Virus record (IMG/VR): IMGVR_UViG_3300020054_000066 | Span: 1-23,312 of that record | DNA: 23,312 nucleotides | Reading direction: 5' to 3' (one strand) | Origin: a virus | Shown: piece by piece, positions 2,857-15,462 of the stretch | Position numbering within the stretch: the stretch's first letter is position 1 | Layout of the letters: every line of letters starts with the position of its first letter | Program-made: the position numbers and the translations under genes | The notes under the pieces: generated by a model | Seen by the model: only the letters and a program-made list of their open reading frames with translations | Told to the model about the DNA's origin: nothing | Databases searched by the model: none

Positions 2857-5262
2857 CTATCGCGCTGTTGCTGGTGCGACGTTTGAGCCGCCAAAGGGGT
2901 GTTCTGCAAATGCCATGAAGATGTACGTTCTACCAGAGCCGTTAATGTTGTTCTGGTTATCTCGTGGCTTAAAGCCGTTCGACAAAATATCAATTTCAAC
3001 AGTGGTCGAAGCAACTTCAGCCGCACTACTTTCAGCTAATATATATCTACCGTCTGGATTATATGTTTGACGGGCCGTGTCATACATTGTCCATGAGTTC
3101 GCTACGCTGGAGCATTTAATCATGACCCAAGCAGGTCTGAAACCGCACCAGACAAAGGGAAAATTTGTCGAGCCGGTGTAGATGCCGAATTTGCTAAAGC
3201 CTTCGACTTCTGCCCAGCAATAAGCAATGCAGGTATTTCCGCTGTTCATTACAGTACCCTGAGAAAACACAGATGATGTTGGGAAGGTACTGTTCCAGTA
3301 AGCGTTACTGGAGGTTTGCGCTTGTGTGCCTTCAAGAAACTGCGAATATGAACCGTCTGTATAGTTGATGTTTTGAACAAACCAGCTATCACCCGCAGAC
3401 CGCTCTTTCTTGATAATCATTGACGGTTGAACACCAAGTCCATGACCAATAGTGTCGCTGCCCGTTCCGGTGGCAGTCCATGAAACGATGCTGAATTTCG
3501 CCGTGTCATTTACACTAACCGTAGAGGATATGCTTCCATCTTCGTTCGACGCCGTGCCGTTCCCGGCCAACCATTGCCATGCTGCTACGTTAATCCCTGA
3601 CTGATTGATATTGTTCCAGACGGACCCATCGCCACTGACAGTAAAGCCGTCGGCATCAAGGCTGGTAATGCCGCCGGTTCCAACAACCTCTGCCGCTGCT
3701 TGGTTAGAATACAGAGTGTTTGGCGGAACTCGAACTGCGTCCACTAGGATGTGATTGTCGGTTTTGTTTCTTTGTTTTGCCCACACAAAGTCGGGCTGAA
3801 ACGTCGAATTTTCTGACTGGTTCACCTCTAAATCAACAGCACCCGTCCCGGTAAACAGCGTCGTCTGGAAATACGCCGAGCCGTCAGCGATTGCAGGTGT
3901 GGGCAAGTTCGCGGTGGACAGGGCTGAGAAGCCGGTTGGCGAGGGGTGGTCGAAGCCAAGTTGGCCGAAGTTAACGGTTACATCAGATGAATTTCGGCTG
4001 CGAACATATGGGGCAACAGCGCCGTCTGCCGCCCAAGATAATGTCTCTCCGGTTCCTGCGCCGGGATCACCGGAGTTATACCAAGTTCCGTTCTTTCCAA
4101 ACCAAATCTTTTTGGCGTCTACGTCAAACGCCATCATCACAACATCACTGGTCGTGTAGGTGAAAGCTGGGCTTAAAGTTCCTGTTGTTCCGTCGTAGTC
4201 GTAACCACCGTTTCGGTCGATATTGGCTTTTGGTGACGTTGGAAATCCGACACCTTGAATACCTGTAACCGGATTTGATGTTGAGCTATCCGCCGTGTTA
4301 ATTTGATATTCGACGTAATATTTTCCGCTGTTAACAAAAATTGTTGCCATTACGTCGGTAGCAGTACCTGTGGCATCGGCGTTAAGATTGCCGTCTTTTA
4401 GCGTAACGCCGCCGCTAGATGACATATTTAGCGGGTTCAGTGTCGCAAAGTTATTACTCGGCGTATCCGTAACCTGATCGTCGCTGGTCCACGAGCCAAC
4501 AAGCCGCATGTGGTTGTCGTTGCCAGAAGTATCAGCACCGATGTCCGACGCTGTAGCGCCAGACGTGCCGCTCTGCTTGAACTCCATAAAGCAGCCGTCC
4601 TCGCCAAACTGGGCAGTAGACAGGCTGTTTTCTTTTGGAACCCAGACACCGTCATTGTTGTATTCGCCAAACTGATCTGGGCCGTAAATGTCGGACGCGC
4701 CAAACGCGCTGTCGAGGATCAGGTAGTAGTCGGCAATGTACCAGTCGCCTATACCATTCGGCGTAGACTGATACTCGTGCGTGTTAATCCGATAGTCGTA
4801 GCTGTTCGCGATTAGATAGCGATAACTGCCGCCATGAGTGAAAGTCAGGACTACTTCATTGTTGGCGTAGTAGGTCAGGACACCGTTATCATTTTTTATA
4901 CACCAGTGGGTCCAAGCACTTGGATCGCGAAACACGGCTGATGATGTGTGAGCTGTAAACGCACTGGCGTTGGTGCCGTAGTAGTGTACGAGTTTGTCGG
5001 CACTAGCATTTATAACCGGATAGTCTGAATAATAGGTGCTGCCCCCGACACTGGACGAGTGCAAAACCATGTCGTTGGTGGATACGCCGCAGCGTTTTGC
5101 CCAGAAGCTGACCGTGTAGTAGTTACTGTTGCCAGTCCCCACGAAATCTGTGGTTGCTTTCAAGAAGCTGTGGTCAGTCCCGAGACGCGCCGCGTACTTA
5201 ATCTGATAGCCGCCACCGGCTGCACCAGATGCCCCGGCGAGCTGATTGTTAAAAATCGGCAT
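2857..5262 (-). CDS. Large LamG/SPRY receptor-binding-type tail protein
   Basis: This 801-residue protein is probably the host-recognition tail protein. Approximate domains are a short virion-anchoring N-terminus (MPIFNNQLAGASGAAGGGYQ), a concanavalin/LamG-type domain at residues 45-200 (YTVSFWAKR, WTHWCIKNDNGVLTYYANN), a SPRY domain at 290-435 (GKYYVEYQI, GYDYDGTTGT, VMMAFDVDAKKIWFGKNGTW, VTVNFGQLGFD), and a C-terminal region at 490-795 resembling the DUF7483-type domain of marine phage fibres (DFVWAKQRNKTDNHILVDAV, IVSWTATGTGSDTIGHGLG). It ends with the recurrent FAEHPFGGSNVAPATAR tail. Base composition is visibly more AT-rich than the flanking genes, suggesting recombination of the host-range module. 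It follows the short fibre gene and precedes its probable assembly partner. Confidence 0.85.
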   Translation of the reverse strand: MPIFNNQLAGASGAAGGGYQIKYAARLGTDHSFLKATTDFVGTGNSNYYTVSFWAKRCGVSTNDMVLHSSSVGGSTYYSDYPVINASADKLVHYYGTNASAFTAHTSSAVFRDPSAWTHWCIKNDNGVLTYYANNEVVLTFTHGGSYRYLIANSYDYRINTHEYQSTPNGIGDWYIADYYLILDSAFGASDIYGPDQFGEYNNDGVWVPKENSLSTAQFGEDGCFMEFKQSGTSGATASDIGADTSGNDNHMRLVGSWTSDDQVTDTPSNNFATLNPLNMSSSGGVTLKDGNLNADATGTATDVMATIFVNSGKYYVEYQINTADSSTSNPVTGIQGVGFPTSPKANIDRNGGYDYDGTTGTLSPAFTYTTSDVVMMAFDVDAKKIWFGKNGTWYNSGDPGAGTGETLSWAADGAVAPYVRSRNSSDVTVNFGQLGFDHPSPTGFSALSTANLPTPAIADGSAYFQTTLFTGTGAVDLEVNQSENSTFQPDFVWAKQRNKTDNHILVDAVRVPPNTLYSNQAAAEVVGTGGITSLDADGFTVSGDGSVWNNINQSGINVAAWQWLAGNGTASNEDGSISSTVSVNDTAKFSIVSWTATGTGSDTIGHGLGVQPSMIIKKERSAGDSWFVQNINYTDGSYSQFLEGTQAQTSSNAYWNSTFPTSSVFSQGTVMNSGNTCIAYCWAEVEGFSKFGIYTGSTNFPFVWCGFRPAWVMIKCSSVANSWTMYDTARQTYNPDGRYILAESSAAEVASTTVEIDILSNGFKPRDNQNNINGSGRTYIFMAFAEHPFGGSNVAPATAR

Positions 5263-10581: not shown

Positions 10582-12035
10582 CGCAGCCCGAGGGAACTGG
10601 CCTCAATGTCGATGCCTTGGGCCTGCGTCCAGTCGCCGGTCAGGTTGAGGCGTACAGTGTGAAAGCGGCCTTCTGATCGCACTGGTATGTAGCCTTCCGC
10701 GTTCAGCGATGAGGCGCTGCCAAACGTGGCCGTGTCCTGCTGGCGCAGGCGCGTACCGATCTGAGCGGTGACGGTTGTCGCCCCCTCAGTGTACGGCACG
10801 ATCTTACGCAGCATCGCGCGCCGACCGGGGAACGCCTGGAACTCGCTGGTCTCCAGCGTGGCCGCGAGCGTCGCTCCACCGAATATGGCGAGCTTGGTGT
10901 CATCGATGCCGCCGAACAGGAACTGCCCGCCCTTCCAGGCCACGCTGTCGAGCGAGGCAGACAGCGCGTCAAGAGACGCCGACACGTTGTCAAGCTGCTC
11001 AAGCGTATAGCCCGCCGTCATAAAGCTGCCGACGCCATCGGTGTCGACCGCGGCATAGCTCCAGCGATCGAGGCTGTAGTTGTAGAACAGCAGGCGGTCA
11101 GGACGACCCGACACTGAGGACGACGACGGGTAGCTCACGACGATGAGCTGGTTGAGCGGATCGACCGAAGCCGAGATCCGATAGCCGTAGTCGGCGTTGA
11201 GGTCATCAAGGAAGAAGCGGTTGACGCGCTCCGCGCCGATCGCCTTCGACCCGCTGCCGTCGAACAGGTAGAAGCCGTCGTCCGAACAGTAGAATACGTT
11301 GCGCCCGATCGCGGCGACGCTGCCGGGGTACTTACAGCCGCGGCTGCTCTCCACCAGGTCGAACTGGTAGAACAGCGGCGGACCAACGAACTGGGCGCGC
11401 ATGATGCCGCGCTCGCAGAGGATGATGCCATATTCGCCGCCGACAACGCCGGTCACCGCGCCGATGTCGTTTAGGTCTTGAAAGTCAGAGCCGCTGGTAG
11501 CGCTGCTGCCCCAGGTCGTCTCGCTTCCGATACCGGACCAACGAACGCGGTACGGATAAACTGTCCCGCTCTCTTCGGTGTAGCCGGTGAATATCTGATC
11601 GCGCACGACCGCCATGTAGCGCGCCTTCGGCGGCGTACCAGACAAGTCAGCAAACGACCCGCCGCCGATCGTCTCGATCTGGATCGGGTCGTCAAAATTG
11701 GTCGCGATGACCTTGTTCGACCACTCGATGAAACGCCAGCGCTCGCGCGTGCTGGTGGAGTATCCGCCCACCTTGCTCGCGTCAGCAAAGGTCGTCGTCG
11801 TCGATCCGGCGAGCCGGTAGAGCTTGGAGGTGTCCCCGGCGTAGACGTTCGTGTTTTCGCTGGAATCCTTGACCGCAATGAAGCCTCGGATGCGCGTGTC
11901 TGTCGCCGAGGAGAAATCACTCAGCGCCTTCATCGAGCGATAGCCGCGAGCCGCCGGTATGACGTTCTTGGCGACCGTAGAGCCTGGGTTCTCGAACGCA
12001 GGCTGGTCAGGCAAGAACTCAGGAAAGTTAATCAT
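10578..12035 (-). CDS. Tail nozzle / tubular protein B-like structural protein
   Basis: The start is ATG at 12035 (MINFPEFLPDQPAFENPGS), overlapping the previous stop by 4 nt; longer in-frame extensions lie inside the neighbouring gene. The product is 485 residues. The sequence is beta-rich and reads like a propeller, with repeated strand-turn units such as GFIAVKDSSENTNVYAGDTS, RWRFIEWSNKVIATNFDD, GRNVFYCSDDGFYLFDGSGS and LIVVSYPSSSSVSGRPDRLL, which is the style of tail-nozzle and gp12-like proteins of short-tailed phages. Around residues 340-368 it carries a LEQLD...SLDS..W module also found twice in the preceding gene. Placement after the adaptor gene supports a nozzle role. Confidence 0.72.
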   Translation of the reverse strand: MINFPEFLPDQPAFENPGSTVAKNVIPAARGYRSMKALSDFSSATDTRIRGFIAVKDSSENTNVYAGDTSKLYRLAGSTTTTFADASKVGGYSTSTRERWRFIEWSNKVIATNFDDPIQIETIGGGSFADLSGTPPKARYMAVVRDQIFTGYTEESGTVYPYRVRWSGIGSETTWGSSATSGSDFQDLNDIGAVTGVVGGEYGIILCERGIMRAQFVGPPLFYQFDLVESSRGCKYPGSVAAIGRNVFYCSDDGFYLFDGSGSKAIGAERVNRFFLDDLNADYGYRISASVDPLNQLIVVSYPSSSSVSGRPDRLLFYNYSLDRWSYAAVDTDGVGSFMTAGYTLEQLDNVSASLDALSASLDSVAWKGGQFLFGGIDDTKLAIFGGATLAATLETSEFQAFPGRRAMLRKIVPYTEGATTVTAQIGTRLRQQDTATFGSASSLNAEGYIPVRSEGRFHTVRLNLTGDWTQAQGIDIEASSLGLR

Positions 12036-12709
12036 GCTGCGATGTCCCAGGTCTCGCTGCCGACGGTCACGTCGGTGAATGTCTCGCTGCCCACTGTCAC
12101 GATCGACCACGTCTCGCCGCCGACCGCAGCCTCATTAAAGTCTTCACCCAGTATCTTTCCTGCCGCAGACACGCTTGCCGCAGCAGCCGGAGAGGCAGCG
12201 CCCACAAAGGTGCCGACCGCCGTCGCGCTGACTGTGGCGCTACTGGATAGCGTTGCGTTGCCAACCGCTTCAAAGCCGCCGAGTGCAGTGACGCTGGCAG
12301 ATGTCGCAGCCGAGGCGCCGCTGCTCTGCACTCGAACGCCAGCAGACGATACGCTCGCCGACGTGGCGGCAGATGCGGTGCCGAGGCGGATGACAACGCC
12401 AGCCGCCGAGACGCTCGCGCTTGCCGCGGCTGATCCGCTGCCAAGCTGCACGCGGACGCCCGCCGACGAGACCGATGCAGATGTCGCTGCCGAGCCAGAT
12501 CCATATCGTAGGCTCGCGGTCGTCCAGATCGCGTTGTCGAGCGAATATGGGAGACTGTCGATCGTCCCCCAGTTGTCGAGCTGCTCTAACGTCGGGCCGG
12601 TGAAGTCAGCGTAAATCCAGTCTGCGCTGTCAAACGACGTGGTGATGCTGTCGACGGTGCCGTAAGCATCAAGCTGTTCTAAATTCGGCCCGGTGGTTGG
12701 CTTCGCCAT
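12032..12709 (-). CDS. Repeat-rich structural protein with LEQLD modules
   Basis: The protein has 225 residues. Two tandem modules at residues 7-31 and 38-62 share the pattern LEQLD..GT.DS...S.D.A.W. Then come about six imperfect 20-residue Ala/Ser-rich repeats (SAATSASVSSAGVRVQLGSG type), then a third repeat type at the C-terminus (VGSETFTDVTVGSETWDI). The composition suggests an extended beta-solenoid or fibrous virion protein. The start shares its A with the previous stop (TAATG) and the stop overlaps the tail-nozzle gene. I do not recognise a named family. Confidence 0.75.
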   Translation of the reverse strand: MAKPTTGPNLEQLDAYGTVDSITTSFDSADWIYADFTGPTLEQLDNWGTIDSLPYSLDNAIWTTASLRYGSGSAATSASVSSAGVRVQLGSGSAAASASVSAAGVVIRLGTASAATSASVSSAGVRVQSSGASAATSASVTALGGFEAVGNATLSSSATVSATAVGTFVGAASPAAAASVSAAGKILGEDFNEAAVGGETWSIVTVGSETFTDVTVGSETWDIAA

Positions 12710-13101
12710 TAAGCCGCCGTAATCGTCACGCCGCTGGTGTTGACCTTGAACACATCACCCGTGGCGATTGTCTTCGACGCATCCAGGGCGCCGTAGAACA
12801 GCAGGTTGCCCGCGCTGCTCGCGTCCCAAACGCCGATATGCGTAAGCGTCCCCCAGGACGAAGTCGCGGTGTCAAACTCGACCGCGCCGCTGTTGGCAGC
12901 GGAGCCGGAGGATGCGGCAGAGAACGCGATTGCCTTGCGAACATATCCGGTGCCGGAGGTTGAGACCTCTGCGCCGCTGGCGTCGTCAGCCGGGTTGGCA
13001 GTGTGAAGCGACAGGTAGACTGCTGCCGGTGCCGAGGTGCTGGCGGTTCCCAGGAAGTGATCGAGAAACTTGTTCTCCAGATAATCGCTCATCGCGCTCA
13101 T
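12709..13101 (-). CDS. Gp80-like phage structural protein
   Basis: This 130-residue protein resembles the Gp80-type 'phage tail fibre/minor structural' family: the N-terminal pattern SDYLENKFLDHFLGTAS, then AAVYLSLHTANPADDASG, and a C-terminal SSWGTLTHIGVWDASSAGN followed by LLFYGALDASKTI. The family is widespread next to head-tail connector genes and its exact role is unsettled. The start at 13101 has GGAG upstream and overlaps the adaptor stop by ATGA; a second in-frame Met (SDYL) lies three codons in. Confidence 0.78.
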   Translation of the reverse strand: MSAMSDYLENKFLDHFLGTASTSAPAAVYLSLHTANPADDASGAEVSTSGTGYVRKAIAFSAASSGSAANSGAVEFDTATSSWGTLTHIGVWDASSAGNLLFYGALDASKTIATGDVFKVNTSGVTITAA

Positions 13102-13727
13102 GTGAGTTCTCCGTAGTTGCTGCGCATAGTCGGTGCGCCACCGATGCGAGCGCGCTGTTCATCAAGTTTGATTTCCTCAATCGCGCGCTGCGCCAGCGCT
13201 TCAAAGCCAGCCGCGCGCTGGTCGTCGACCAGGTAGATCGAGGCGGCTGAAAGCGACGAGTAGAGATAAGCGTCCGGGTAGCGGGTCAGCACCCAGTTGT
13301 TCGTGTTGCTGTCGGACAGCGCGTCGAGGCCGTCGATGTAGGTCAGCTCAATCGTATACTCGGTCGTATCCGGCGTCGGAGCGATCTTCATCTCCTTGCC
13401 GACGACGGTGTAAACCGCAGGCTTGCCGGTGACGCTGCCGGTGTATTCGCGCTCGATCTGGTCGGGCGAAACGTAGCGAAGCGTCTGGCGCGGCGAGGTG
13501 TTGAGCTGCACATGGCGGATCTCGCGCAGGCCAGTCGGCAGCGCAATGTATTGATCGTTCGCGGTCGTCGTAACCGTCGCGCGCTTTTCCTGCTCGCGCG
13601 TCTCCAGCTCACGCGACAGGCGCGCTTCAGCCAGGTCGATAAACTCAGGGATGCGCGCCGTCAGATCGTCGCGCCCGAGCCAGTTGGCGACTGCTGTTTG
13701 CAGCTCGCTGTAGGTGCCGATCGCCAT
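13098..13727 (-). CDS. Head-tail adaptor protein (gp11 / phage adaptor-like)
   Basis: This 209-residue, mainly helical protein starts TYSELQTAVANWLGRDDLTA then RIPEFIDLAEARLSRELETR, the typical N-terminal helices of podovirus adaptor proteins (T7 gp11 and P22 gp4 functional class) that bind below the portal and start the tail. A middle beta region (QYIALPTGLREIRHVQLN, KPAVYTVVGKEMKIAPTPD) fits the same family. The C-terminal half has AGFEALAQRAIEEIKLDEQR. The start overlaps the preceding gene by TAATG. Gene order (capsid, small proteins, adaptor, nozzle) supports the call. Confidence 0.85.
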   Translation of the reverse strand: MAIGTYSELQTAVANWLGRDDLTARIPEFIDLAEARLSRELETREQEKRATVTTTANDQYIALPTGLREIRHVQLNTSPRQTLRYVSPDQIEREYTGSVTGKPAVYTVVGKEMKIAPTPDTTEYTIELTYIDGLDALSDSNTNNWVLTRYPDAYLYSSLSAASIYLVDDQRAAGFEALAQRAIEEIKLDEQRARIGGAPTMRSNYGELT

Positions 13728-14263: not shown

Positions 14264-15462
14264 TTAGGAGGTCGAAAGGTCAACGACGGCGGCATGCGCC
14301 TTCGGTGCCTTCATAACGAGCGTCCACTCAGACACGATCGCGAACTTGGTCGCGTCGCCCGTCGGGGCAACGTCGGAGACCGAGAACATGCGACCGGGCA
14401 GGTGACCGATCGAGTAGAAGTCAGGATCAAGCAGGAAGATTTCCGTGTTCGCTGCCTGACGGTCGATGACCACGTTGAGCGTACCGAAGTCGGTCAGGTA
14501 CATGCTCACCGAGCCGATGATGACTGCATCGGTCGGCGCGTTGGCCGTCATGTGGAGCTGGTTGGTCACCGCGCTGCCCGAAGACAGATCGGAGAACGCA
14601 ACCTTGTTGGCCGGAGAGACAACCAGCATCGACGGGTTGCCGCCGTCCACATAGGCAGCTTCCATCGCGTCGTCGATCTTCGCCAGGGTCAGGGCCGCAT
14701 TGGCACCGGCCATGTCGGAGACGTCAGAACCATCGCCAGTCGGCGTGGTGGTTGCACCTTCGACCACCGTGTTGGTGATGTACGACAGCAGCTTGCCCGC
14801 CTTGCGGGGATCGCTGCCCGAGCGGGCTTCGTTCTTGAAGAGAGCCTTCTCGACGTCGCGGCGCTGCTCGATGCCCTTCAGCACCTTCACATACGCGGTT
14901 TCGCGATCGCGGCCAGCAGAATCGACGACGTCGAGGGTATTCGACACCGAAGCAGCCTGGACGCTGATCTGGTGGTAGTTGCCACATTACCTTCAGAGCA
15001 GATCGCTAATCTGCCCCCGCTCTTCCGAGCTGCTCTGTGTCGCCACAGAGATGAGACTATATCATCACCCCGAAGGGTGTCCCGCGCTTCCCTGCCGCTT
15101 GGCAGGTACTCCAAAAGGATAGTCGTTGAACCTTCCTCTTTCGAGGCTTGGCTGCTGATTGTCTCAGAGAGAGTTCCCAGCAATTCACGGGATTTGCATT
15201 ACGCCTTACGACGTAATGGCCCTAGCTAATTAAGGCGCGTCGTTGCCGACGGGTTGACGTAGGAGTAATCGGCGCCTTCGTTGACATAGTTGGTGTCAAC
15301 AGCGGCGGCGAGTTCCTGAACTTGCCACTCATGGAAAATACCCGAAGTGGTTACTTTCTCGGCGTTCGAGAACACCGGGGTTTCATCGGGGTCGATCCGA
15401 TAAATAACGTCGGCGAGATCTTCGCGCTCACCGATCGCTGTGCTGGACGTATAGGTCGCCAT
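14264..15462 (-). CDS. Major capsid protein (SU10/DUF5309-type), interrupted by a group I intron
   Basis: The coding sequence is a join of exon 1 (15233-15462) and exon 2 (14264-14984), 951 nt encoding 316 residues. Removing the 248-nt intron joins the frame across split Leu77: PSATTRL then GNYHQISVQAASVSNTLDV, and then AGRDRETAYVKVLKGIEQRR. This junction recreates the conserved R.GN..QI motif of DUF5309-type (SU10-like) HK97-fold capsid proteins. The C-terminal half includes YITNTVVEGATTTPTGDG, MLVVSPANKVAFSDL, TDFGTLNVVIDRQ and FLLDPDFYSIG. Without splicing, exon 1 ends after 78 residues at an in-frame TAG inside the intron. The start (ATG 15462) has AAGGAA upstream and follows the scaffold gene. 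It forms the head shell with the scaffold. Confidence 0.9.
14985..15232 (-). ncRNA. Group I self-splicing intron (td-like, probable subgroup IA) in the capsid gene
   Basis: The core elements are readable. P1 pairs exon GCCU (15233-15236) with GGGC (15219-15222) through a U-G pair at the splice site. P10 pairs the 3' exon UGGC (14981-14984) with GCUA (15223-15226). P2 is 15212-15218/15197-15203; P3 15186-15192/15080-15086; P4 15178-15183/15152-15157; P6a has a GAAA loop (15135-15146); P7 is GACUAU 15119-15124 with AUAGUC 15055-15060; P7.2 spans 15091-15106; P8 (15066-15079) has a UUCG loop; P9 (15033-15050) has a GCGA loop, with two more hairpins at 15019-15030 and 14998-15014. The intron starts TAATTAG and ends in AATG (omega G at 14985), like T4 td. 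It contains no ORF for a homing enzyme. Hairpins between P7 and P3' point to subgroup IA. Confidence 0.93.

Follow-up and report, generated by a model that had tools for sequence, protein, structure and literature searches.

Papers from 2025 still describe group I introns of phages as preferring DNA metabolism genes, and their confinement to nucleotide and DNA metabolism genes has been called mysterious or a central question (PMC12350094, PMC11878797). The introns in td, nrdB and nrdD of T4 and those of the Bastillevirinae and SPO1 are located in such genes and often contain endonuclease ORFs; they share with the intron described here the ribozyme class and the apparent IA-type architecture. 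A capsid location is known from mycobacteriophage LittleE (Cluster J), where splicing of an intron in the major capsid gene was demonstrated by RT-PCR and N-terminal sequencing (PMC3706429); a passage of the same paper cites Tuc2009 as another phage of this kind. LittleE and our locus have in common that a group I type intron lies in the major capsid gene, that its removal restores the frame, and that exon 1 ends in U and the intron in G. However, the single LittleE intron is about 819 bp long, carries an ORF of the LAGLIDADG endonuclease type and interrupts an HK97-type capsid gene, whereas ours, known here from sequence, comprises 248 nt without an ORF, interrupts an SU10-type capsid gene and is part of a many-site set.

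Three group I introns within one structural gene, two of them IA2, are reported for orf142 of Staphylococcus phage Twort, according to the passages of PMC10136302 and PMC11878797 that cite the original work (PNAS 1999). In these passages, the gene encodes the tail tube, has a short internal exon and shows exon skipping over this exon of 23 nt, whereas the three-intron genes considered here are capsid genes of the window's relatives. The introns of the Jug huge phages are likewise short (mean about 206 nt), numerous per genome and mostly devoid of an internal endonuclease, but occupy terL, nrdD, polymerase and other genes (PMC12363816); in the relatives analysed here (769 kb), introns were found in the capsid gene only. 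Our search of open-access papers yielded no description of a clade whose capsid genes are interrupted by introns at many sites. An intron in a capsid gene is by itself nothing new, but the many-site hotspot in this gene among relatives is unexpected. The initial annotation had set the capsid location against the DNA-metabolism genes known to carry phage introns. This location is real, but it has precedents in LittleE and, reportedly, Tuc2009, and it turned out to be frequent and multi-site among relatives. Altogether, we regard it as very probable that the locus contains a group I intron of subgroup IA type, which is spliced from the mRNA of an SU10-type capsid protein and belongs to introns that recurrently enter this gene.

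A group I intron in the capsid gene of the window

The window, i.e. the whole stretch of 23.3 kb that was analysed, encodes on its minus strand the head module of a tailed phage: terminase large subunit, SU10-type portal, scaffold, capsid, and SU10 adaptor, the scaffold, portal and adaptor genes being located near the capsid gene. The initial annotation had assigned a group I intron to the latter and suggested a search with RF00028, whose failure would have refuted it; the search succeeded. When cmscan was applied to the whole window, RF00028 was the sole Rfam match; it covers positions 15242-15033 (minus strand) and the full model (1-253), and its score of 95.2 bits (E-value 1e-23) is well above the gathering score of 50 bits. 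Alignments with each of four intronless homologues (L002, L003, L006, L008) leave a gap of 248 nt at 15232..14985. Excising an interval shifted by one base (15231..14984) yields the identical spliced product; 15232..14985 was chosen because group I introns end in G.

Joining the flanks gives a single frame of 317 codons, which encodes a major capsid protein of 316 residues. This protein matches SU10_MCP (PF17236) with 240.5 bits over 309 residues (profile positions 3-291 of 292) and corresponds to phrog_1328, whereas its two halves separately score 158.1 and 52.3 bits. If the frame of exon 1 is read into the intron, it reaches a UAG after two intron-spanning codons; exon 2 lacks a start codon with an evident ribosome-binding site. 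The alignments and profile matches thereby establish the identity and boundaries of the intron and the restored frame. They bear out what had been claimed beforehand: two separate capsid ORFs whose frames are joined exactly by removal of the intron, an SU10/DUF5309-type protein with the GN..QI motif at the junction, and an interval that proved correct to the base, to which we add the minus strand for gene and intron. All features are compiled in Table 1. On the plus strand, positions 14294-15229 form an open frame of 311 residues, which is antisense to most of the capsid gene and the intron and is probably a by-product of codon usage.

Table 1. Exons, intron and predicted RNA helices of the capsid locus (window coordinates)
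Feature	Position	Strand	Remarks
Exon 1, major capsid gene	15233..15462	-	230 nt; codons 1-76 and part (two bases) of codon 77; ends with the U of the 5' splice site
Group I intron	14985..15232	-	248 nt, without endonuclease-type ORF; ends in G, omega-G at 14985; based on RF00028 and empty-site alignment
Exon 2, major capsid gene	14264..14984	-	721 nt; remainder of codon 77 to stop
In-frame UAG stop within intron	15226..15228	-	Terminates translation of the unspliced message
Splice junction	...CGACGCGCCT joined to TGGCAACTAC	-	Expected in spliced RNA
P1	15219..15238	-	Exon GCCU (15236-15233) with guide GGGC (15222-15219); U.G wobble at the splice site
P10	15226-15223 with 14984-14981	-	Guide GCUA with exon 2 UGGC
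P2 hairpin	15197..15218	-	7 bp
P3	15080..15192 (15192-15186 with 15086-15080)	-	Paired in all cells (100%) of the 24 introns; double-sided changes in 4 pairs
P4 enclosing P5	15153..15182 (P4 15182-15177 with 15158-15153; P5 15172-15162)	-	P4 100% paired, 3 covarying pairs; P5 88.5%
P6 and P6a, GAAA loop	15130..15152	-	P6a 100% paired
P7, guanosine-binding helix	15055..15124 (GACUA 15124-15120 with UAGUC 15059-15055)	-	100% paired in 24 introns
P7.1 (15119-15110) and P7.2 (15106-15091), between P7 and P3'	15091..15119	-	From sequence; mark of subgroup IA
P8, UUCG loop	15066..15079	-	From covariation alignment
P9 (15050-15033, GCGA tetraloop), P9.1 (15030-15019), P9.2 (15014-14998)	14998..15050	-	From RF00028 match, sequence and covariation

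The helices listed by the initial annotation (P1 with its U-G pair, P2, P3, P4, P6, P7, a hairpin between P7 and P3', P8, P9, and P10) are all present. Between P7 and P3', two hairpins can be formed at 15119-15091, namely P7.1 and P7.2 with the pairings UCC/GGA and CCUGCC/GGCAGG, which points to a subgroup IA architecture. Most likely, the intron RNA would fold after transcription and use an external guanosine to cut after the exon 1 uridine held in the U.G pair of P1; exon 1 would then be joined to exon 2 at omega-G, resulting in the mRNA for the 316-residue capsid protein. The unspliced message would specify a fragment of 78 residues only. Splicing in the cell is nearly certain in our judgement, and from the sequence it is fair to infer that virion assembly depends on it.

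Covariation, prevalence and insertion sites among relatives

The proposed structure was compared with homologous introns. In 24 aligned introns, 91.6% of the cells in the 47-pair structure are standard pairs, with P3, P4, P6a, and P7 being paired in every intron. The number of double-sided changes is 188, compared to 59 in shuffles and 11-38 when the alignment was slid; the covariation score is 0.413 versus 0.146. An independent consensus fold showed compensatory changes in 21 of its 34 predicted pairs. A P1 of at least 4 bp with U.G at the splice site exists in 26 of 28 distinct introns, where U and G were imposed in the boundary search for the relatives; the boundary of the window's intron came from empty sites.

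To rank relatives, only residues 115-232 of the capsid protein were compared; this stretch was chosen since most insertion sites fall outside it, and the ranking is independent of introns. Capsid introns were found in 28 of the 80 ranked relatives (26 by insertions of about 210-280 nt, and L214 and L229 by RF00028), while 52 have no detected intron. Four further contigs (L059-L062), themselves 99.4-100% identical to the window, contain the identical intron. A copy with 97.6% identity occupies the same site in L109/L205, whose capsid protein is 95% identical and whose gene contains two further introns; the copy in L109 keeps the structure and scores 95.5 bits with RF00028.

For 50 whole records of this set (769 kb), RF00028 gave 46 matches in 27 records, 45 exceeding the gathering score and one falling just short with 49.5 bits. 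Each of the 46 is located in the capsid gene, in coding orientation, and can be spliced out cleanly. They occupy nine sites, at nt 68, 143, 175, 230, 238, 303, 344, 707, and 726 of the coding sequence; the window's intron is inserted at nt 230. One intron is present in thirteen records, two in nine, and three in five. The capsid genes with three introns are those of L205, L219/221/222, and L230, the shortest internal exon comprising 41 nt (L205); the window has one intron. Less close relatives contributed four additional sites: 219 and 335 (L170), 322 (GenBank phage C72C1 and several contigs), and 719 (L172), which raises the total of mapped positions to 13. As boundaries in distant relatives are less reliable, these sites were kept only with clear scores or agreement of several loci. 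The 28 distinct introns are 208-285 nt long, and every intron contains an early in-frame stop; conceptual splicing of each of the 24 full-length genes with introns yields 316 residues and no internal stop. Thus, the occurrence of capsid introns at many sites is directly observed. The gene tree also contains a large intron-free clade comprising 25 distinct genes. A preference for conserved residues was not significant: the entropy near the nine sites was 0.37, compared to 0.45 at random positions (p = 0.15).

Several observations concern individual relatives. In the deposited complete genome of phage C72C1 (L201, GenBank OQ984150.1), a group I intron of 251 nt (RF00028, 81.8 bits) interrupts the capsid gene (12001-13202); the annotation shows this gene as two "major head protein" entries, between which three small hypothetical ORFs are placed on the opposite strand. 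Due to split genes annotated as two proteins, capsid-based surveys can miscount or miss phages. Contig PBOZ01000018.1 (L398, positions 4359-4580), which belongs to a Red Sea Rickettsiales MAG bin, encodes a close relative of the capsid gene with a group I intron (72 bits); it is possibly of phage origin and may indicate the host. Two long intron-bearing relatives, G024 (L275/L276) and G041 (L277/L278), encode integrases and repressor-like proteins, and the phage group is therefore probably temperate; in the window, itself a fragment, no phrog_1 integrase was matched.

Proposed intron movement and competing explanations

Some alternatives concern the locus itself. The window is a metagenomic contig, and an assembly artefact or a chimera was considered; its probability is negligible, as the RF00028 match spans the entire model and identical junctions recur in L059-L062 as well as in L109/L205, which rules out a local assembly artefact. 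Hardly more credible is a decayed intron that no longer splices and leaves two capsid fragments acting together: covariation supports the core helices, none of which is disrupted, the exons meet exactly, an evident translation initiation site of its own is missing from exon 2, and the nearly identical copy in L109 has retained the structure. Improbable, too, is the proposal that the intron is not selfish but kept as a regulator of capsid production, e.g. for GTP- or translation-dependent late synthesis. "Molecular switch" ideas have been put forward for the introns of T4 nrdB and the Bastillevirinae (PMC11878797), and owing to the early stop in each intron unspliced RNA gives no full capsid protein. 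On the other hand, insertion sites vary widely, and the intron-free majority of the ranked relatives as well as differences between very close pairs imply that no constant regulatory role is needed.

A further alternative concerns the spread of the introns. Vertical inheritance combined with ordinary homologous recombination and repeated loss, i.e. without homing driven by an endonuclease, would be compatible with free recombination among phages and with the identity values: introns at the same site are 71-100% identical (86% on average), those at different sites 65% on average, which inheritance in place also predicts. Moreover, an endonuclease ORF is absent from all 28 distinct capsid introns, and a search with five Pfam models (HNH_3, PF13392; GIY-YIG, PF01541; HNH, PF01844; LAGLIDADG_2, PF14528; LAGLIDADG_3, PF03161) found none in 26-27 records, most of which are fragments. 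Likewise, when 107 ORFs from two long records were compared with PHROG, no endonuclease was among the 25 families listed, a weak negative since families matched once are outside this list; Pfam gave none for ten further ORFs of the window. We nevertheless consider this explanation rather unlikely, because three findings argue against purely vertical spread. The distribution on the gene tree is patchy, requiring five changes for site 344, four for site 726, and 2-5 each for six of the nine sites, although this count does not separate gain from loss. The site-238 introns of L230 and L206 are 97.8% identical, whereas their exons are only 72% identical. Finally, L230 with three introns and L218 with none are near-identical phages (flanks of 98.9% identity over 1.7 kb and 99.1% over 1.6 kb) whose exons differ at the intron sites: 16 of 90 positions within 15 nt of the three sites are mismatched, compared to 26 of 858 elsewhere (Fisher p = 2.6e-7; one pair, three sites).

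This clustering, seen in one pair at three sites, is the pattern that co-conversion during homing would leave. In part it could be due to selection for pairing between exon and guide; against this, the mismatch tract at site 344 extends about 50 nt upstream. We therefore lean slightly towards double-strand-break homing in co-infected cells, by which related introns would repeatedly enter the capsid gene at many positions, with the endonuclease acting in trans. An enzyme in trans is proposed because none of the characterised introns encodes one; phages are known in which free-standing endonucleases share their target with endonuclease-less introns ("collaborative homing"; PMC3984707). Taken alone, the intron of the window bears no sign of recent transfer.

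Host genes beyond the close relatives

In a first scan, viral contigs were searched with the intron-core pattern alone, and for the resulting loci (at least 119) one flanking ORF each was submitted to a domain scan. Among the matches listed, whose family counts may overlap slightly, the capsid families were SU10_MCP (22), Phage_capsid_4 (10), Phage_capsid_2 (7), Phage_capsid (4), and Gp23 (1), while DNA_pol_B (6), RNR (2), and DNA_pol_A (1) represented other genes. The matches listed for the opposite flank included SU10_MCP (19) and Phage_capsid_2 (7); since both flanks match these two families, the introns do lie within the respective genes. Interruption of Phage_capsid_4 genes is backed on the second flank through PHROG 267 only (16 matches listed for one flank and 9 for the opposite one). 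A second core variant, for which one flank was scanned and the chosen ORF was in about 30 loci the endonuclease itself rather than the host gene, gave among the matches listed SU10_MCP (14), Phage_capsid_2 (8), Phage_capsid_4 (8), and Phage_capsid_3 (1), besides ribonucleotide reductase (7-8) and portals (5). A longer tail pattern in the core search was too strict and gave 5 loci.

Judged by the matches listed, major capsid genes are the most frequent host gene identified in both scans, containing or adjoining about 44 of 118 sampled introns in the first and at least 31 of 116 in the second. The loci are largely non-redundant (118 form 100 and 116 form 90 clusters at 80%). Note that both core patterns were derived from the window's intron family; the capsid preference is a strong lead and not a census. 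Capsid families other than SU10_MCP (the L082-L199 set, Phage_capsid_2, and the PHROG 267/3437 loci) are interrupted by the same intron type. With several families affected, a single gene lineage does not account for the preference.

The core scans and the clade with capsid-only introns suggest that the accepted preference for DNA metabolism genes is in part a consequence of the choice of phages brought into culture. Going further, we tentatively propose, as a possibility for which the odds are below even, that in uncultured tailed phages short group IA introns lacking an endonuclease reside chiefly in major capsid genes rather than in genes of DNA metabolism. With an endonuclease provided in trans, they would home between co-infecting phages and accumulate to as many as three in one gene; their presence may shield the carrier from endonucleases that target the capsid gene. 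The question has become testable, as close pairs with and without introns and with known empty sites exist. Further viral contigs (L113, L107, L183, L087, L117, L142, and L130) contain two to four RF00028 introns within a few kb.
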